Origin: Aneurinibacillus soli
GTDB taxonomy: Bacteria; Bacillota; Bacilli; Aneurinibacillales; Aneurinibacillaceae
Direction: 5' to 3'
DNA: 64,000 nt
NCBI RefSeq assembly: GCF_002355375.1
Contig: NZ_AP017312.1
Span: 2,373,001-2,437,000 of the forward strand
Part shown: in pieces, positions 1 to 12,617 of the stretch
How positions within the stretch are numbered: the stretch's first letter is position 1
Layout: each line of letters begins with the position of its first letter
Notes under the pieces: model-generated
Seen by the model: the letters and a program-made list of their open reading frames with translations, nothing else
Databases searched by the model: none
Told to the model about the DNA's origin: nothing
Program-made: the position numbers and the translations under genes

Positions 1-150
1 TTATCGGTATTTGCGATGCCTGCGCAAGCGAAAGATGGGGAAGTTGTCTTGCAAAATGTGATCGCCAAGCATGTACGCCCATTGCTGGAAACAGAACTGG
101 GACTGATTATGCCGCCGCTGTCTAGCGAATTGCATGTGACGAAGGTATAG
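1..150 (+). CDS. dmpL: Phenol hydroxylase P1 subunit (C-terminal end, partial)
   Basis: Open frame from the window edge to a TAG at 148-150, 49 codons, 16 bases ahead of the P2 gene. In multicomponent phenol hydroxylases the order is P1-P2-P3-P4-P5, so the gene immediately before P2 is expected to be P1, the diiron-free beta-type oxygenase subunit that docks on P3. The visible tail is too short to show a diagnostic motif, so the call rests mainly on position. The rest of the gene lies outside the window. Confidence 0.6.
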   Translation, partial: LSVFAMPAQAKDGEVVLQNVIAKHVRPLLETELGLIMPPLSSELHVTKV

Positions 151-475: not shown

Positions 476-1975
476 ATGAGCAAAAAGAAAAAGCGCGGAT
501 TAAAAGAAGAATACAACCTGTTTACCCGTGACCTGGATTGGGAACCGAGCTATGTGTCCTGGGATGAGATGTATCCGTATGCGAAGATGGAAGGCATCAA
601 AATTCATGATTGGTCGCGCTGGGAAGATCCATTTCGCGTGACGATTGAGAACTATGTTCGCATCCAGGCCGAGAAAGAGCGGAAATTCCAGGCAATTCGC
701 GAAAACATCGACATGATGCAAAGCCAGCTCGATATTAGTGATGCCCGCTGGCTGGAAGCGATGAAGCTGTTTATGGGTGCTGCTGCCCCGTCCGAATACA
801 ATGCCCACCGCCTGTTTCAATTCGTGGCCCGTCATGTGCCAAGCCCGGCGATTCGCTTCGCGGCTCTGACACAATCGGTTGATGAACTGCGCCACGTGCA
901 GGATCAAGTTCTGATGTTTAATAACTACAACAAATACTACCAGGGCTTCCACAGCTGGCGCCAGGTGGCAAGCCGCCACTGGTTGATGTCAGTGCCGAAG
1001 TCATTCTTTGAAGATGCCCTGACTGCTGGACCGTTTGAAGCACTGGCTGCGATCTCGTTCGGATTTGAAGTCGTGTTCACGAACATTTTGTTCGTCACCG
1101 TTGGTTCGATGGCGGTGAAAAACGGCGACCAGACGTATACCGGGGTCGGCTTCACCTCACAGTCTGATGAGTCACGCCATATGACGCTTGGTATGATGGC
1201 GATTCGTGCCATGCTCGAAGAAGATCCGGATAATGTGCCGATCGTGCAGCGCTGGCTGGACAAGTGGTACTGGCGTGCATACAAAGGGTTTGCGGTTGTA
1301 CCGTACATGCTCGACTACATCGCGCCGCGCAAGCTGATGTCATGGAAAGAAGCATTCGAGATGTACATTGAGGATCAGGTGTTTAACGGTCTGTTTAAGG
1401 ACCTGGAGCCGTATGGCATTCGCCTTCCGCTTCATGCCCAGGACAGCATCAAGGAAAAGGATCATCTGACCCACCAGGTTGCGCTGTTATTGAATCGTCT
1501 GCCACATGTAACGTTCTTCCATCCGTTCGCACCAAACGAGCAGGATAAAGCATTTCTCGCTGAAAAATACGGCAGTGCATGGGAAGATATCTGGGCGAAA
1601 AAATGGGAGCAGCAGACCGATCCAGACCACGATCACATCTATCCGGGCTTGCCACAGTTGTGCCAGACGTGTCAGATTCCGATGATTTTCAGCGAGCCGG
1701 ATAACCCGGAAGAGACATGCTTCCGCCACTCTGTACACGAAGGGGAGACGTATCACTTCTGTTCGGATGGATGTCAGTGGATTTTTGACAACGAACCGGA
1801 CAAATACAAACAGGCATGGCTGCCCGTACATGAAATTCTTTCCGGTAACTGTGGACCGGCGGATAAACTGCATGAGTACTGGGGCGTTGAACCGGAAGAT
1901 ACAGGTGATTATTACGAGTCTCTTAACTATAAAAACTTTACGAAATGGAAGGAAATTCGTGCCCAGGGCATATAA
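476..1975 (+). CDS. dmpN: Phenol hydroxylase P3, diiron oxygenase large subunit
   Basis: A 499-residue catalytic alpha subunit that hydroxylates phenol to catechol. All six carboxylate/histidine ligands of the bacterial multicomponent monooxygenase diiron site can be picked out: E107, E137, H140, E198, E232 and H235, with the DELRH and DESRH motifs at 136-140 and 231-235. Their spacing matches soluble methane monooxygenase. The C-terminal third has a YHS-type domain with Cys396, Cys399, Cys415, Cys429 and Cys433. The length is normal for the family, and a GGGGGAGAAGC site precedes ATG 476. P2 lies upstream and P4 begins 12 bases downstream. Phenol is the likely substrate from gene order, but methylphenols or toluene cannot be excluded. 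Confidence 0.95.
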   Translation: MSKKKKRGLKEEYNLFTRDLDWEPSYVSWDEMYPYAKMEGIKIHDWSRWEDPFRVTIENYVRIQAEKERKFQAIRENIDMMQSQLDISDARWLEAMKLFMGAAAPSEYNAHRLFQFVARHVPSPAIRFAALTQSVDELRHVQDQVLMFNNYNKYYQGFHSWRQVASRHWLMSVPKSFFEDALTAGPFEALAAISFGFEVVFTNILFVTVGSMAVKNGDQTYTGVGFTSQSDESRHMTLGMMAIRAMLEEDPDNVPIVQRWLDKWYWRAYKGFAVVPYMLDYIAPRKLMSWKEAFEMYIEDQVFNGLFKDLEPYGIRLPLHAQDSIKEKDHLTHQVALLLNRLPHVTFFHPFAPNEQDKAFLAEKYGSAWEDIWAKKWEQQTDPDHDHIYPGLPQLCQTCQIPMIFSEPDNPEETCFRHSVHEGETYHFCSDGCQWIFDNEPDKYKQAWLPVHEILSGNCGPADKLHEYWGVEPEDTGDYYESLNYKNFTKWKEIRAQGI

Positions 1976-2229: not shown

Positions 2230-3141
2230 ATGGCAATCATGCGTCTGGGTCGTGTACAAATCCGCGTGCCGAATTGGGAGAAATCGATTTTCTATTATAA
2301 AAATGTACTCGGATTAATTGAAACCGCCCGTGATGAAAACCATGTGTATCTCAAAGCATGGGATGAATATGATCATCATAGTGTGATTCTGCAAAAAGCA
2401 GATACGGCAGGCCTGGATCACCTGGCGTTCAAATGTGAATTTGCCCAAGACCTCGATTTGTACGAGCAGAAGCTGAGTGACTACGGCATTGTCGTACAGC
2501 GGGTTCCGAAAGGCACGCGCATTGCGGAAGGCGAAGCGATTCGCTTCCAGCTCCCGACTGAGCACTGGGTAGAATTGTATCATGAGATCGAAGTGGTAGG
2601 CAACGGGATGCCGCTTGTGAATCCAGACCCGTGGCCGGATCATCTGGTCGGAATCGCGCCACCACGCCTTGATCATCTGCTGGTGACAGGCGACGATATT
2701 GAAGGAGTAAGCCGCCTGTTTATGGATGTATTCGACTTCAAAATGAGCGAGCAACTTGTCGACCATAGCGGAGAAGGACAGCTTGCAACCTGGTTGTTCA
2801 AGACGAATACAGCGCATGACATCGCGTTTGTAAAAGGACCGAATGGACGTCTGCATCATATCGCTTTCTGGCTGGATGAATGGGTAGAGCTGCGTAAAGC
2901 GGCAGATATCATGGCGAAAAACGATGTGACCATTGATATAGGGCCGACCCGCCATGGCATTACGCGAGGGACAACGATCTACTTCTTTGACCCGTCTGGC
3001 AACCGCAACGAAGTGTTCTGCGGTGGCTATATCACGTATCCGGATTCTCCGACGATTACGTGGACAGAAGATACGATTGGCAAAGCGATTTTCTTCTTTG
3101 AGCGCGAGCTGAATGACCGATTTATGAATGTGAATTCATAG
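2230..3141 (+). CDS. dmpB: Catechol 2,3-dioxygenase, copy 1
   Basis: A 303-residue extradiol dioxygenase of the vicinal oxygen chelate superfamily that opens catechol to 2-hydroxymuconic semialdehyde. Two glyoxalase-type domains are visible. The Fe(II) ligands are H149, H210 and E261, and the acid-base residues H242 and Y251 lie in the strand carrying FFDPSGNRNEVF; spacing agrees with XylE. It directly follows the hydroxylase genes, so product passes straight into cleavage. It differs from the second copy (4852-5763) at only three residues: V88, K94 and Q184 here, A88, R94 and K184 there. The pair is a recent or homogenised duplication. Confidence 0.95.
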   Translation: MAIMRLGRVQIRVPNWEKSIFYYKNVLGLIETARDENHVYLKAWDEYDHHSVILQKADTAGLDHLAFKCEFAQDLDLYEQKLSDYGIVVQRVPKGTRIAEGEAIRFQLPTEHWVELYHEIEVVGNGMPLVNPDPWPDHLVGIAPPRLDHLLVTGDDIEGVSRLFMDVFDFKMSEQLVDHSGEGQLATWLFKTNTAHDIAFVKGPNGRLHHIAFWLDEWVELRKAADIMAKNDVTIDIGPTRHGITRGTTIYFFDPSGNRNEVFCGGYITYPDSPTITWTEDTIGKAIFFFERELNDRFMNVNS

Positions 3142-3168
3142 GAACCAGTTAATAGTGTTATATGATGC

Positions 3169-3208
3169 GCGGACCAGCGGAGATGTACAGTCATCTCCGT
3201 CCTGGCCG
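3169..3208 (+). other. Intercistronic hairpin between dioxygenase and ferredoxin
   Basis: A 7-bp perfect stem (GGAGATG at 3179-3185, CATCTCC at 3192-3198, six-base loop) is extended outward by further pairing of GCGG..CAG with CTG..CCGC. No U-tract follows, so it is not an obvious terminator. It may stabilise or be a processing point of the upstream hydroxylase-dioxygenase mRNA. Confidence 0.45.
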
Positions 3209-3259
3209 CTATTGGGCGTGAGGAAGGACGACTCCACGACAGAACAGGAGAAGATAATA

Positions 3260-3544
3260 ATGGCATACGATATTGTAATTGAACCGCTCGGTGTAACGAT
3301 TGCATGTGAAGAAGAACAAACAATTATGGATGCTTTGGTTTCCAATGGGGTAAAAGTAAAAAGTTTGTGTCGTACAGGCCGATGCGGCATGTGCAAATCG
3401 CATATTCATGAAGGGGAAGTAGACTATGGAGAGGCTAATCCCCATACGTTGTTCGAGTCAGAGCGGGAAGAAGGAAAAGTGCTGCTCTGTACAGCTACAC
3501 CGCTGAGTGATCTCGTTATTGAGATTGAAGATAGCGTTTTATAA
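3260..3544 (+). CDS. Plant-type [2Fe-2S] ferredoxin corresponding to the N-terminal domain of phenol hydroxylase reductase P5
   Basis: A 94-residue protein with Cys37, Cys42, Cys45 and Cys77, the C-x4-C-x2-C...C pattern of plant-type ferredoxins. The segment around 53-88 (EVDYGEANPHTL, then LLC and PLSDLVIE) resembles the ferredoxin domain of DmpP/P5. P5 normally continues with FAD and NADH domains to about 350 residues; here the frame stops right after the ferredoxin domain. It would pass electrons to P3 but needs a separate NADH-dependent reductase. A CAGGAG site precedes ATG 3260. A terminator and a repeat element begin within 60 bases of the stop, so either natural splitting or truncation is possible. 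Confidence 0.8.
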   Translation: MAYDIVIEPLGVTIACEEEQTIMDALVSNGVKVKSLCRTGRCGMCKSHIHEGEVDYGEANPHTLFESEREEGKVLLCTATPLSDLVIEIEDSVL

Positions 3545-3564
3545 GCGATGAATATACAAAGGAC

Positions 3565-3614
3565 GAGGCTGTCTCAAAAGCTGCAACACGGCGACTGAGG
3601 CAGCCTCTGTTTTC
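3565..3614 (+). terminator. Terminator after the phenol hydroxylase segment
   Basis: GAGGCTG-CTCA near 3565-3575 pairs with TGAG-CAGCCTC at 3596-3607, followed by TGTTTTC. It lies 20 bases after the ferredoxin stop codon. The right arm is also the beginning of the homology block shared with 23668-24043. Confidence 0.65.
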
Positions 3615-4015
3615 TTGGTGGAGGATTTCTCCAACGTGTGGTGGAGGAGCGGGATCGGGCGGGGCCTCGTCACTTCGGTACGCTTACGGAGAAGTGGTAA
3701 CTGTCCGCTTCAGGTGCCAGGCGAACTCGCCCACAAAAGAAAGCCCACGATGAATTCACATCGAAGCATTGTGGGCAAAGGCCCGTTCGTCTGCCCCCTT
3801 CCGCTGGGAAGTCGCGTACAGGCGTTCCGTTGCCCCGCCCGATCCCGCTCCTGACACAGCTTGGACGGACACCATCAAGCAATATCAAGAGGCTGAACCT
3901 TGCTATGCAGGTAAAAAATGAGGAAGCTGTCTTTCAAAAAGCCAGTTGCGACCCGAGCAAATCCGTTCTGGCGTTGCATGTTTTTTGTAAACCGAAACGT
4001 TGTGCGGGGAGCGGG
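3594..4015 (+). repeat. Interspersed repeat block, copy A1, containing a 206-bp element with perfect 20-bp inverted ends
   Basis: The core element runs 3646-3851 and is bounded by GGAGCGGGATCGGGCGGGGC at 3646-3665 and its exact reverse complement at 3832-3851. The interior is partly self-complementary and carries GGGCAAAGGCCCGTTCG. The whole block, including about 50 bases of left flank and 165 bases of right flank, recurs in inverted orientation at about 23668-24043. It ends at 4015 in GGGGAGCGGG, the position where the neighbouring element begins in the other locus. No transposase is encoded and no clear target duplication is seen. It fills the space between two convergent genes. ORFs across it look like by-products of the repeat. 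Confidence 0.8.
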
Positions 4016-4029
4016 TAAAACGATTAGAT

Positions 4030-4458
4030 TTACGTTGACTCCACCAGTTCTAAAGCTGCCACACAACATGCCATATCCTGTTCGGTGCTTCCACCACTGA
4101 CACCAATCGCACCGATAATCTCACCTTCTACCGTAATCGGATAGCCTCCGCCAAACGTCACAAGCCGTGATGTATGGACGATGCCTTCACGCAGGGCTGG
4201 TTCTTGTGAAATCAATGGATGCCACTCATGGGTTGGAATGCCGAAAGCGGCTCCTGTATAAGCTTTATTAATCGAGATATCAATACTTAAAATAGGAGCG
4301 CCATCCATGCGGGAAAAATGGACAAGATGGCCGCTTTCATCGACGATCGCGACATTGATTTGTACGCCTAACTCGTTTGCTTTTGTAAGGGAACACTCTA
4401 CCATTTGGGCAGCTAGTTCATTTGTGATTGATTTTTTTACGCGATATTTGTTCATCAT
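4030..4458 (-). CDS. GlcG/HbpS family protein
   Basis: A 142-residue protein of the GlcG/HbpS family, small alpha/beta domains often encoded in catabolic operons and in some cases heme-binding. Typical elements are visible: NVAIVDESGHLVHFSRMDGA near 36-55, then the Gly-rich FGGGYPI and GAIGVSGG near the C-terminus. An AGGAGAATC site supports ATG 4458, with ATG 4455 as an alternative. It is read against the surrounding catabolic genes, so it is separately transcribed. Its job in the pathway is unknown; a scavenging or redox role for the meta-cleavage enzymes is only a guess. Confidence 0.8.
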   Translation of the reverse strand: MMNKYRVKKSITNELAAQMVECSLTKANELGVQINVAIVDESGHLVHFSRMDGAPILSIDISINKAYTGAAFGIPTHEWHPLISQEPALREGIVHTSRLVTFGGGYPITVEGEIIGAIGVSGGSTEQDMACCVAALELVEST

Positions 4459-4851: not shown

Positions 4852-5763
4852 ATGGCCATCATGCGTCTTGGTCGCGTACAAATCCGCGTGCCGAATTGGG
4901 AAAAATCGATTTTCTATTACAAGAATGTACTCGGGTTAATTGAGACGGCCCGTGATGAAAACCATGTGTATCTCAAAGCATGGGATGAATATGATCATCA
5001 TAGTGTGATTCTGCAAAAAGCAGATACAGCAGGTCTGGATCACTTGGCGTTCAAATGTGAATTTGCCCAAGACCTCGATTTGTACGAGCAGAAACTGAGT
5101 GACTACGGCATTGCCGTACAGCGGGTTCCAAGAGGCACGCGCATTGCGGAAGGTGAAGCGATTCGCTTTCAGCTACCGACTGAGCATTGGGTAGAGTTGT
5201 ATCATGAGATCGAAGTGGTGGGCAACGGGATGCCGCTTGTGAATCCGGATCCGTGGCCGGATCACCTGGTCGGAATCGCGCCGCCACGCCTTGATCATCT
5301 GCTGGTGACAGGTGATGACATTGAAGGAGTAAGCCGCCTGTTTATGGATGTATTCGACTTCAAAATGAGCGAGCAACTTGTCGACCATAGCGGGGAAGGA
5401 AAGCTTGCAACCTGGCTGTTCAAGACAAATACAGCGCATGACATCGCGTTTGTAAAAGGACCGAATGGACGTCTGCATCACATCGCTTTCTGGCTGGATG
5501 AATGGGTAGAGTTGCGTAAAGCGGCGGATATCATGGCGAAAAACGATGTGACCATTGATATCGGGCCAACCCGCCATGGCATTACGCGTGGGACGACGAT
5601 CTACTTCTTCGATCCATCTGGCAACCGCAACGAGGTGTTCTGCGGCGGCTATATCACGTATCCGGATTCTCCGACGATTACGTGGACAGAAGATACGATC
5701 GGCAAAGCGATTTTCTTCTTCGAGCGCGAGTTGAATGATCGATTTATGAATGTGAATTCGTAA
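4852..5763 (+). CDS. dmpB: Catechol 2,3-dioxygenase, copy 2
   Basis: A 303-residue extradiol dioxygenase with the same ligands as copy 1 (H149, H210, E261; H242 and Y251 conserved). Only residues 88, 94 and 184 differ between the copies, while many synonymous bases differ, so both are under purifying selection rather than being a fresh exact duplicate. This copy heads the second part of the pathway and is followed by its own terminator-like hairpin and then a XylT-type ferredoxin. Two copies would raise ring-cleavage capacity, or be expressed under different control from separate promoters. Confidence 0.95.
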   Translation: MAIMRLGRVQIRVPNWEKSIFYYKNVLGLIETARDENHVYLKAWDEYDHHSVILQKADTAGLDHLAFKCEFAQDLDLYEQKLSDYGIAVQRVPRGTRIAEGEAIRFQLPTEHWVELYHEIEVVGNGMPLVNPDPWPDHLVGIAPPRLDHLLVTGDDIEGVSRLFMDVFDFKMSEQLVDHSGEGKLATWLFKTNTAHDIAFVKGPNGRLHHIAFWLDEWVELRKAADIMAKNDVTIDIGPTRHGITRGTTIYFFDPSGNRNEVFCGGYITYPDSPTITWTEDTIGKAIFFFERELNDRFMNVNS

Positions 5764-5862: not shown

Positions 5863-6135
5863 ATGGATACATATAACATGTATGTACGTGGTCAGGAGAA
5901 AGAAATAAAAGCTTCTGCCAAGCGGACGCTGCTTGATGCTGCTGCCGCTGCCCGGCTACCGCTGCTTGTCGGTTGCAAAGGCGGAGGATGTGGTGTGTGT
6001 AAAGTACGAATTATCGACGGGATGATCGAACACGGTTTTTACTCGAAATCGGTGCTTACGGATGAGGAACGATCTGCCGGATACGTACTTGCATGCCAGG
6101 CCAGGCCGCTATCTGATGTGACAATTGATTTGTGA
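5863..6135 (+). CDS. dmpQ: XylT/DmpQ-type [2Fe-2S] ferredoxin
   Basis: A 90-residue plant-type ferredoxin with cluster ligands Cys38, Cys43, Cys46 and Cys78. It sits right after a catechol 2,3-dioxygenase, the usual place for XylT/DmpQ, which re-reduces the active-site iron of the dioxygenase after oxidative inactivation. It lacks the GEVDYGEA-type segment that ties the other ferredoxin (3260-3544) to P5, so the two probably serve different partners. A GAAGCGGAGG site is upstream of ATG 5863. The downstream hydratase gene begins 37 bases later. Confidence 0.8.
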   Translation: MDTYNMYVRGQEKEIKASAKRTLLDAAAAARLPLLVGCKGGGCGVCKVRIIDGMIEHGFYSKSVLTDEERSAGYVLACQARPLSDVTIDL

Positions 6136-9910: not shown

Positions 9911-11389
9911 ATGCCACAGACAAAAGTAGACGTGCGTGAAGTGAAGCTGTATATTAACGGACAATATGTGGATGCGACGTCGAACCGCCTGTTCGATGTG
10001 CATGATCCATCGACAGGGGAGCTAATTGCCCGGGTTCATGAAGCGAGTGAAGCAGACGTACATGATGCGGTCATGGCAGCACGCCGCGCGTTTGAAGAAA
10101 GTGAATGGCGGACGATGCCGGTGAAACAGCGCTGTGCACTTGTGCGTCGGATGGGCGATATTATGATCGAACGGAAGGAAGAATTAGCCCGTCTTGAAGC
10201 ATTAGATGTAGGTAAACCGTATCGTGATGCGCTCGAACACGAAATTCCGCGTGCCGCGAACAATATGAAGTTTTTCGCAGATTTTATTGAACAGCATGGT
10301 TCAGAAGCGTTCCCAGTTGATGATCAGTTCTTGAACTATACGCTGTATGAGCCAGTCGGGGTAGCAGGGTTGATTACGCCGTGGAATCTTCCGTTCATGC
10401 TTACGACATGGAAGCTAGGGCCGTGTCTGGCGACAGGCAATACAGCGGTGATTAAGCCGGCGGAATTAACGCCGCTTACGGTAAGCTTACTTGGCGAAAT
10501 TGCTAAAGAAGCTGGCATTCCAGACGGGGTTGTGAATGTCGTGCAAGGGTTCGGTCCAAGGTCAGCGGGTGAGTTCATGACGACGCACCCGGAGATTGAT
10601 CTGATTACGTTCACAGGCGAGACAGCGACAGGTAAAGCGATCATGAAAGCGGGATCGGATACGTTGAAGCGTGTATCTTTTGAGATGGGCGGCAAAGCAG
10701 CGAACATCGTATTTGCGGATGCAGATCTCGATCAAGCTGTATCGACCTCCATTCGTGCCGCATTTATGAATGCAGGGCAAGTATGTCTGGCAGGTTCGCG
10801 CTTACTTGTACAGCGTGATATTTATAATACGTTCGTTGATAAACTTGTAGAAGCAGCCAGTCGTCTGAAAATCGGTGATCCGCAAGATCCGACTACAAAT
10901 TTGGGACCGCTAATCGGTGAGGAGCATTATCGTAAAGTAACTGGATATTTGGAAGTAGCCGCACAGGATGGAGCAGTGCTTGCATACGGTGGCAGACGTC
11001 CGGAACTGCCGGAACATTTGCAGAACGGCTACTATCTGGAACCGACAATTTATACGCATGTAAGTAACCAAATGCGCGTCTGCCGAGAAGAAATTTTCGG
11101 ACCAGTTGTTGTAGTCGTGCCGTTCGATACGGAAGAGGAAGCGATTCAAATCGCCAACGACACTGAATACGGACTGAATGGGATGCTGTGGACGAGTGAT
11201 GTGAAGCGGGCGCACCGTGTAGCCGCAAAAATTCGGGCTGGTACAATCTGGGTGAACTGCTGGTTCGTGCGCGATTTACGTGCACCGTTCGGGGGCTTCA
11301 AAAAGAGCGGCATCGGACGAGAAGGTGGTAAGTTCAGCCTTGAATTTTTCACAGAAGCAAAAAATGTTTGCGTAAGCTTGGTTGAATAA
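9911..11389 (+). CDS. dmpC: 2-hydroxymuconic semialdehyde dehydrogenase
   Basis: A 492-residue NAD-dependent aldehyde dehydrogenase that oxidises the ring-cleavage product to 4-oxalocrotonate. The TPWNLPFM cofactor motif, general-base Glu in SFEMGGKAA, catalytic Cys in NAGQVCLAGSR and the C-terminal PFGGFKKSGIGREGG are visible. ATG 9911 follows GGAGGAGAACCT; the longer open frame to 9830 overlaps the tautomerase and is unlikely. It is the last gene of the operon. With no DmpD hydrolase in the window, the pathway appears to use only this dehydrogenative branch. Confidence 0.93.
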   Translation: MPQTKVDVREVKLYINGQYVDATSNRLFDVHDPSTGELIARVHEASEADVHDAVMAARRAFEESEWRTMPVKQRCALVRRMGDIMIERKEELARLEALDVGKPYRDALEHEIPRAANNMKFFADFIEQHGSEAFPVDDQFLNYTLYEPVGVAGLITPWNLPFMLTTWKLGPCLATGNTAVIKPAELTPLTVSLLGEIAKEAGIPDGVVNVVQGFGPRSAGEFMTTHPEIDLITFTGETATGKAIMKAGSDTLKRVSFEMGGKAANIVFADADLDQAVSTSIRAAFMNAGQVCLAGSRLLVQRDIYNTFVDKLVEAASRLKIGDPQDPTTNLGPLIGEEHYRKVTGYLEVAAQDGAVLAYGGRRPELPEHLQNGYYLEPTIYTHVSNQMRVCREEIFGPVVVVVPFDTEEEAIQIANDTEYGLNGMLWTSDVKRAHRVAAKIRAGTIWVNCWFVRDLRAPFGGFKKSGIGREGGKFSLEFFTEAKNVCVSLVE

Positions 11390-11413
11390 AAGTTTCAGGT
11401 ATAGAAGTGGACG

Positions 11414-11427
11414 TTCCTCTAGAGGAA
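11414..11427. other. Perfect 14-bp palindrome
   Basis: TTCCTCTAGAGGAA lies 25 bases after dmpC and just ahead of its terminator. It might be a protein-binding site or a pre-terminator stem; nothing else shows its role. Confidence 0.3.
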
Positions 11428-11435
11428 AGTAGCAG

Positions 11436-11463
11436 GCTGTCGAGAAAGTCTCGACAGCTTTTT
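11436..11463 (+). terminator. Terminator of the meta-pathway operon
   Basis: A perfect 10-bp stem, GCTGTCGAGA at 11436-11445 with TCTCGACAGC at 11449-11458, and a three-base loop are followed by TTTTT. It lies 46 bases after the dmpC stop. Confidence 0.9.
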
Positions 11464-11480
11464 ACGTTTACATATAGTAT

Positions 11481-12617
11481 CTACTCGACTACGCCATTTT
11501 TTTTGATTTTTACTACGGGTATGATCGATACTTTTGCCTTTGAGAACTCCAAGGGCCAGTGATCCTCAACCTTTTTCCATTCTGAATATTGGTAAGCGCG
11601 TGCCTGCCATCCGAATCCAAAGGGATCAAGTTGTTTCTTTTGTGCTTTTTTAATTAGACCATTCAGTTCCTTTGTGAACTGCTTGGTAAGGATGGCTTCA
11701 AGCTGCTCCTTATTTTTGGTTACATTCATATCGAATGTACGTTCAGTTAAATCAACATTCATCTCCAGCTGTACAATAAAAGAAAAATGATTATGCTCAT
11801 GAGTAATCGAAATCTTACGTTTGGCTTTATAAACATCGATGGATGTAAAATCTGTCCCTTTTTTGTTTTGCAGCGGGTTTGGAGTTTTAAAAGAAAAAGG
11901 GGGCATATGCATCGTAAAAGATACTGGCGGGTGTTCACTTTTTTGCAGCATTAGAAGGAGGGCACTTTCATGACGATCGAGTGACAGCTCATACATTCCT
12001 TTTTTATTTAAAAGAGCTGAGCCGGTTATCGTAAGCGCCTTTGGTCCCTTCTTGATTTCGGTAATGAAGGGAGTAATTCCTTTATCGAACGCTATTTTAT
12101 GAAAATGTTGTGCGGTAACAAAAACTCCTTGATTTGAATCTCTTCCTACATCGACTACGTTTTTTATGTACATAGGCAGGATTGGTTTATCGTTAAATTT
12201 ACTGTTTATTAGCGGAGCAATGGGTCCTTTTACAACAACCAGGCACATATTCCCTGAGTTTTTTGCATCCCGATAAATACTATCAAGCAAAGTCATAACC
12301 CCTTGTTTTTTCAATAAGTGCTCGCTAAACATAATGACTTGTACTTTTCCAGTCGTGATCTTTCCATTCATCATACTGTCAAATATTTGTCTAGCTTGTC
12401 TGTTGGTATTCACTTTTGCGCTGTGGATTTCATATTTGTTCTTTGCTTCTTTATTGAAAACAGGGTTCAACTGATAGACCGTTAATTTTCCTTTTTCATC
12501 TATATCTAACGCGTACACTAACGATAAGGTTGTTTCCTCCACACTAAGTCGGTCTCCACAACCTGAGAGAAATAGTAAGTAAAAACAGAGTAGAATAAGC
12601 TTAGCCTGTTTTTTCAC
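11481..12617 (-). CDS. Ger(x)C family spore germination lipoprotein
   Basis: A 378-residue protein with an N-terminal lipoprotein signal (hydrophobic stretch then FLSGCGD), so Cys20 is probably lipidated and the protein anchored to the outer face of the spore inner membrane. The length and the order A-B-C identify the C subunit of a nutrient germinant receptor. The usual GCWDR start of GerC proteins is altered to GCGDR. It is the last gene of a minus-strand operon and overlaps the B-subunit gene by 17 bases. The germinant cannot be read from sequence. Confidence 0.9.
   Translation of the reverse strand: MKKQAKLILLCFYLLFLSGCGDRLSVEETTLSLVYALDIDEKGKLTVYQLNPVFNKEAKNKYEIHSAKVNTNRQARQIFDSMMNGKITTGKVQVIMFSEHLLKKQGVMTLLDSIYRDAKNSGNMCLVVVKGPIAPLINSKFNDKPILPMYIKNVVDVGRDSNQGVFVTAQHFHKIAFDKGITPFITEIKKGPKALTITGSALLNKKGMYELSLDRHESALLLMLQKSEHPPVSFTMHMPPFSFKTPNPLQNKKGTDFTSIDVYKAKRKISITHEHNHFSFIVQLEMNVDLTERTFDMNVTKNKEQLEAILTKQFTKELNGLIKKAQKKQLDPFGFGWQARAYQYSEWKKVEDHWPLEFSKAKVSIIPVVKIKKNGVVE

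Follow-up and report, generated by a model that had tools for sequence, protein, structure and literature searches.

The window, a 64,000-nucleotide stretch of Aneurinibacillus soli DNA, opens inside a phenol hydroxylase cluster, in a genome (G000) that consists of 1 contig of 4,116,770 bases and is 99.98% complete. The cluster runs in the order regulator, P1, P2, P3, P4, a first copy of a catechol 2,3-dioxygenase gene and a small ferredoxin gene, which we call Fd1. On the 3' side of Fd1 there follow a dispersed repeat, a gene for an HbpS-like protein on the opposite strand, a second dioxygenase copy, a second ferredoxin gene (Fd2) and further meta-pathway genes (Table 1). P3 matched the phenol hydroxylase PHN at 6.9e-137, and its two DExRH motifs, located at residues 136 and 231, are presumably the ligand motifs of the diiron alpha subunit. 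Fd2 probably serves the catechol 2,3-dioxygenase. The preliminary description of this DNA had treated positions 3260 to 4015 as a single feature, which joined two unrelated things, the Fd1 gene and the repeat that lies behind it.

Table 1 Genes and other features around Fd1, in window positions
Feature	Position	Strand	Evidence
P1 3' end, DmpL-like beta subunit, 350 aa; remainder upstream of the window (L004:14098-15150)	1..150	+	Phenol_Hydrox PF02332 1.7e-52
P2, MmoB/DmpM effector protein, 98 aa	167..463	+	PF02406 7.1e-27
P3, diiron hydroxylase alpha subunit (DmpN-like), 499 aa, YHS domain, two DExRH motifs	476..1975	+	PF02332 8.3e-56, YHS
P4-like small subunit, 74 aa	1988..2212	+	No Pfam match; assigned by position and conservation
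Catechol 2,3-dioxygenase copy 1, between P4 and Fd1	2230..3141	+	TIGR03211 425 bits, above cut-off
Fd1, free-standing [2Fe-2S] ferredoxin (94 aa) corresponding to the P5/DmpP N-terminal domain	3260..3544	+	Pfam, NCBIfam, tree, BLASTP
Stem-loop, possible terminator, on the left edge of the repeat	3561..3612	+	Fold of 3560-3625, -30.3 kcal/mol, z -3.7
Dispersed repeat, ~450 bp, many genome copies, unrelated to the Fd1 gene	~3565..~4015		86 own-genome matches
HbpS-like protein, neighbour	4030..4458	-	PF03928 5e-41
Catechol 2,3-dioxygenase copy 2, protein 99% identical to copy 1	4852..5763	+	
Fd2, XylT/DmpQ-like ferredoxin	5863..6135	+	PF00111; groups with XylT-like ferredoxins

Other features of the neighbourhood were recorded alongside. 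The regulator, just upstream of the window (L004:11826-13808), has XylR_N and V4R sensor domains joined to a PucR-type helix-turn-helix; in activators of the XylR/DmpR type a sigma-54 domain is present. Two members of the lineage described below encode, close to their phenol cluster, a small protein of 107-124 residues with no Pfam match (L038:3330-3653 and L004:11397-11768 (minus strand)), the two being alike by eye. A strong hairpin at 3160-3225 (-28.2 kcal/mol, z -2.9) occupies the gap between dioxygenase copy 1 and Fd1, a gap that is far shorter in the near relative G006. Both near relatives carry two dioxygenase copies (those of Table 1, and L016:7628-8539 and 11254-12165), with 51 and 42 nucleotide differences between copies within a genome, as against 98-119 between genomes, which suggests gene conversion or separate duplications.

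Fd1 corresponds to the ferredoxin half of P5

The Fd1 reading frame extends from an ATG at 3260, with an AGGAGA-like ribosome site upstream, to a TAA at 3542-3544. Residues 7-81 matched Pfam Fer2 at 4.9e-15, and the cysteines are spaced CX4CX2CX31C, so that Fd1 has what defines a Fer2 ferredoxin, namely a Fer2 domain with CX4CX2CX(~30)C. The best NCBIfam model was that of an MmoC-type reductase, matched at model positions 14-91 of 343 only. When compared by BLASTP with the reductase DmpP encoded on a Pseudomonas veronii plasmid (L091), Fd1 aligned without a gap over residues 1-93 of both proteins at 47% identity, and its end coincided with the inter-domain linker of DmpP. Because this alignment is ungapped from residue 1 to residue 93, Fd1 is taken to match the ferredoxin domain exactly in extent. 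By comparison, the DmpQ-type ferredoxin from this P. veronii cluster matched Fd1 at an E value of 0.02 only. The alignment and its stop at the linker bear out the earlier reading of this frame as covering only the N-terminal [2Fe-2S] domain of P5; the FAD/NADH part was likewise correctly described as missing, since a tblastn search with the C-terminal half of P5 gave no significant match either in the window or in the near-lineage loci (best E 4.8).

The short gene is shared by a lineage and is under purifying selection

Searches with P3 yielded a lineage of five loci, in which P3 identity to the window's protein is 96% for G006, 74% and 71% for the two loci of G010 (L040 and L041) and 72% for L038 (genome G398); the records L037 and L039 duplicate L040 and L041, so that each pair counts as one locus. 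At four of these five loci the sequence can be read past P4, while L040 stops at a contig edge 185 bases after P4. The four readable clusters comprise two that are near-identical and two from metagenome-assembled genomes. Fd1 was present and P5 absent in all four, and in each of them Fd1 had a length of 94-99 residues and the C-terminal end E-[DE]-S-[VI]-[LF]. In the near relative G006, a one-contig genome, Fd1 is 99% identical to that of the window, and in two distant relatives, whose P3 is 71-72% identical, it has 95-99 residues and the same C-terminal ending. The dioxygenase gene lies between P4 and Fd1 in three of the four readable clusters; in L038, Fd1 comes directly after P4, which is the site of P5 in Proteobacteria.

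The nucleotide sequences of Fd1 in G000 and G006 differ at 29 positions and the proteins at 1 residue (dN 0.009, dS 0.63; Nei-Gojobori, raw pairwise values), giving a dN/dS of about 0.015. For the same pair of genomes, dN/dS values were 0.018/0.37 for P2, 0.020/0.72 for P3, 0.030/0.70 for P4 and 0.011/0.75 for the dioxygenase. Of these five genes, Fd1 and the dioxygenase were therefore under the strongest constraint, the ratio for Fd1 falling below those for P2, P4 and P3. Purifying selection of this strength would not be expected of a fragment. The idea, already raised in the preliminary description, that this lineage has a split P5 is strengthened by these comparisons, as the short form is common to all four readable clusters, ends at the linker in each and is under strong selection.

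Candidate reductases elsewhere in the genomes

If P5 is split, its reductase might be encoded elsewhere in the genome, as had also been proposed. A Bacilli P5 query run against G000 and G006, each one contig, returned only ferredoxin matches and flavoprotein scraps of 17-21 bits. FAD_binding_6 (PF00970) gave 0 matches in these two genomes, in a search whose sensitivity is limited because PyrK of G000 was missed too; the same search recovered P5 itself in G002 and G007. NAD_binding_1 (PF00175) had three matches in G000, namely a CysJ-like protein, a CysJ-like protein without the flavodoxin domain, and PyrK. By the P5 query and these two domain searches, neither a P5-type reductase nor a free FAD/NADH protein of P5 type was found in G000 or G006, and no reductase was found linked to the cluster.

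G000 does encode a reductase of another kind. Among its 12 Pyr_redox_2 matches, one is close to ferredoxin-NADP reductases of known structure (6gas 3.5e-165, 3lzw 5e-154). This thioredoxin-reductase-type ferredoxin-NADP reductase, which by name we take to belong to the YumC family, is located at G000:C1:1016692-1017567, unlinked to the phenol cluster. We regard it as an even call whether this YumC-type NADPH reductase would be the electron donor. The system could also be split with a different donor, either the CysJ-like FAD/NAD protein without a flavodoxin domain (386 aa, L084:6932-8092) or some other flavoprotein. This CysJ-like protein is a free combination of FAD_binding_1 and NAD_binding_1 similar to plant-type ferredoxin-NADP reductases, and an open frame of equal length in G006 matches it; however, its best matches are sulphite reductase flavoproteins and it is unlinked to the phenol cluster, and we consider a donor other than the YumC-type reductase unlikely.

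Other flavoproteins were set aside. In G010 a single full-length reductase of Fer2-FAD-NAD architecture is encoded, with 35% identity to P5. It is the sole FAD_binding_6 match in that genome, and was not taken as the partner because it stands beside a Rieske-type dioxygenase operon, adjoining a dioxygenase alpha/beta pair and a dehydrogenase. In G398, FAD_binding_6 matched only a 267-aa Fpr-like protein and a PyrK-like protein, and the Fpr-like reductase was rejected as a partner since the remaining genes of its 6.6-kb contig look foreign in our reading. FixABCX, named by eye 3' of the cluster in L038, was rejected as a donor as well, FixC being present in all six genomes searched, two of them of the P5-bearing lineage, and being encoded at a distance from the phenol cluster in the other genomes. 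G010 also contains a toluene-monooxygenase-like cluster with a Rieske-type ferredoxin (L086:6738-10242); in the 20 kb listed there, no TmoF-like reductase was noticed by eye, and this is possibly a second oxygenase without a reductase of its own.

P5 in the sister lineage and the placement of Fd1 in trees

Other phenol hydroxylases of Bacilli, with P3 proteins 44-47% identical to that of the window, were treated as a sister lineage, for which 25 loci were read, 11 from the class and relatives searches and 14 from a search of 193 genomes around G398. Full-length P5 (339-378 aa) was present in 20 of these 25 clusters. P5 was interrupted in two (L044 and L125) and was not seen in the fetched stretch of another two (L127 and L130), and one (L129) ends at a contig edge. 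The genome of L127 has another cluster with P5, and L130 is a P1-P3 remnant. Of 48 plasmid records found with P3, 3 were opened, and in each of these a reductase gene with 352-353 codons is annotated behind P4. As sister clusters without P5 exist, the window's lineage is not alone in lacking P5; among the loci read, it is only in that lineage that the absence is the rule and that a P5-like free ferredoxin was found in its place.

In a P3 tree that takes in 11 of the 25 sister loci, the five rows of the window's lineage formed one group (94/99), apart from the 11 Bacilli rows with P5 and 3 proteobacterial rows. In a tree of 38 ferredoxin domains, Fd1 formed one group (100/100) within the P5 side (90/90), and Fd2 was placed with XylT-like ferredoxins; once one very long row was left out, support for the P5/Fd1 side was 96/93. 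Placement of Fd1 on the XylT side was not rejected by the AU test (p 0.35), and nor was its placement with Fd2 (p 0.26). Because the test rejects neither alternative, descent from P5 is favoured, rather than proven, by the tree, and the ungapped match to DmpP and the position after P4 in L038 add to it. We thus favour the interpretation that the Fd1 gene is complete, and that the free [2Fe-2S] ferredoxin it encodes descends from the ferredoxin half of a DmpP-type P5.

XylT-like ferredoxins act by re-reducing the dioxygenase. Fd1 might be a second ferredoxin of the XylT/DmpQ kind that reactivates the extra catechol dioxygenase, with the hydroxylase using another carrier. In G000 and G006 one ferredoxin gene comes after each copy of the dioxygenase, and the AU test does not reject the XylT side. 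Yet the clusters of L038 and L041 show a single dioxygenase together with both ferredoxins, Fd1 sits directly after P4 in L038, and the DmpP match is far better than the DmpQ match, all of which make this reading improbable. We judge it very improbable that the cluster is decaying, such that the hydroxylase has lost its reductase and no longer works: degenerate clusters do exist in the sister lineage (L127 and L130 without P5, L044 and L125 with a broken P5), but the other parts of the cluster are intact here, the 4 lineage members that were checked retain both DExRH motifs, and P2, P3, P4, the dioxygenase and Fd1 all have dN/dS values far below 1.

The repeat behind Fd1 did not truncate P5

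The stretch homologous to the repeat begins 21 bases past the Fd1 stop. Of its matches in its own genome, 40 reach E 1.2e-113 or better, its own site included; many of the copies adjoin a partly inverted second part. A terminator and a repeat had been placed within 60 bases of the gene, and this was right for the repeat and for the presence of a stem-loop, which is only a possible terminator and is not among the sites listed by a simple terminator scan. The repeat is absent 3' of Fd1 in G006, L038 and L041, and G006 has a hairpin of its own at that place. Elsewhere in the G006 cluster, a repeat copy is found between the regulator and P1 (L016:3545-3999).

The preliminary description had offered truncation of P5 by insertion of the repeat as an explanation, and this is refuted because the relatives carry the short Fd1 without the repeat: G006, L038 and L041 all have a short Fd1 with the same ending, no repeat behind it and no P5, which is the very pattern that the preliminary description had named as counting against truncation. 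Although the repeat does start 21 bases past the stop, its insertion into a full-length P5 in this strain, cutting off the FAD/NADH half and leaving a fragment, is scarcely credible, given that G006 has the same 94-aa gene followed by a different hairpin, that Fd1 ends at the same residues in L038 and L041, that a FAD/NADH remnant was not found in the window, and that Fd1 is under strong purifying selection.

A proposed split phenol hydroxylase system

Judged by sequence, the identity of Fd1, its conserved length, the absence of P5 from both cluster and genome, and the intact state of the hydroxylase can be regarded as established. The cluster probably represents a form of the DMP phenol hydroxylase system that is split and specific to this lineage. 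P5 would have lost its FAD/NADH half before the P3 lineage spread over several genera of Bacilli, at which point the system became split. Because only the iron-sulphur half of P5 appears to have been kept, the hydroxylase probably borrows electrons from a general-purpose reductase. In the scheme that we propose, an unlinked housekeeping NAD(P)H:ferredoxin reductase, for which the YumC-type enzyme with NADPH as the source is the best candidate, would reduce Fd1. Fd1 would then dock in the manner of the P5 ferredoxin domain and pass electrons one at a time to the diiron site of the hydroxylase (P1-P2-P3-P4). Phenol would be converted to catechol, which would be cleaved by the neighbouring catechol 2,3-dioxygenase, and Fd2 would keep its separate XylT-like role. 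The system most likely works like DMP phenol hydroxylase with a longer electron chain.

The fullest version of this proposal is that a whole lineage of Bacilli phenol hydroxylases operates without a dedicated NADH reductase, its free P5-derived ferredoxin being fed by a general NADPH-dependent ferredoxin reductase of the thioredoxin-reductase type. We put this forward tentatively, at somewhat less than an even chance. If true, phenol oxidation changed both flavoprotein family and coenzyme in this lineage, which would make it an example from nature of a diiron monooxygenase whose reductase has shrunk to the ferredoxin domain. The FAD/NADH half would then be replaceable by an unrelated housekeeping reductase, and the result would be a minimal module for oxygenase engineering. 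As a rule for annotation, a P5 gene missing from such clusters need not mean a broken pathway. In the open literature, with subscription journals mostly uncovered, no description of a phenol hydroxylase with a free P5-type ferredoxin was found, which is weak evidence; the type of ferredoxin used by the Bacillus reductase is not stated in the available portion of PMC10526003.

Comparison with known systems

The closest counterpart is the DMP-type phenol hydroxylase (DmpKLMNOP; PHN structure 2INN). As there, P1, P2, P3 and a P4-like gene stand in the usual order with a catechol 2,3-dioxygenase and meta-pathway genes after them, and one operon encodes a diiron alpha subunit with two DExRH motifs, a beta subunit and an MmoB/DmpM effector. 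Unlike the DMP type, however, the P5/DmpP reductase with its Fer2, FAD and NADH domains is not encoded with the window's hydroxylase, the ferredoxin half forms a gene of its own, and the P4-like protein has 74 aa only.

In toluene 4-monooxygenase (TmoABCDEF), the TmoC component is a Rieske ferredoxin. The window's system resembles this enzyme in having its electron carrier separate from a flavoprotein reductase, and in toluene 4-monooxygenase assays T4moC and T4moF were added as separate proteins (PMC4200526). The two differ in that TmoF is a dedicated reductase, whereas the window's carrier is of the plant type and a dedicated reductase was not found. With the XylT/DmpQ ferredoxins, Fd1 shares the form of a small plant-type [2Fe-2S] ferredoxin in a meta-cleavage operon, but in the window it is Fd2 that fills that place, and Fd1 groups with the N-domains of P5 in the best trees.

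Finally, the ferredoxin domain of methane monooxygenase reductase (1JQ4), to which Fd1 matched at 4.9e-10, folds alone as an isolated domain. For methane monooxygenase, it has been proposed that the reductase hands electrons on to the hydroxylase through its ferredoxin domain (PMC9628860). The 1JQ4 domain, in contrast to Fd1, was cut out in the laboratory; Fd1 is a natural gene.
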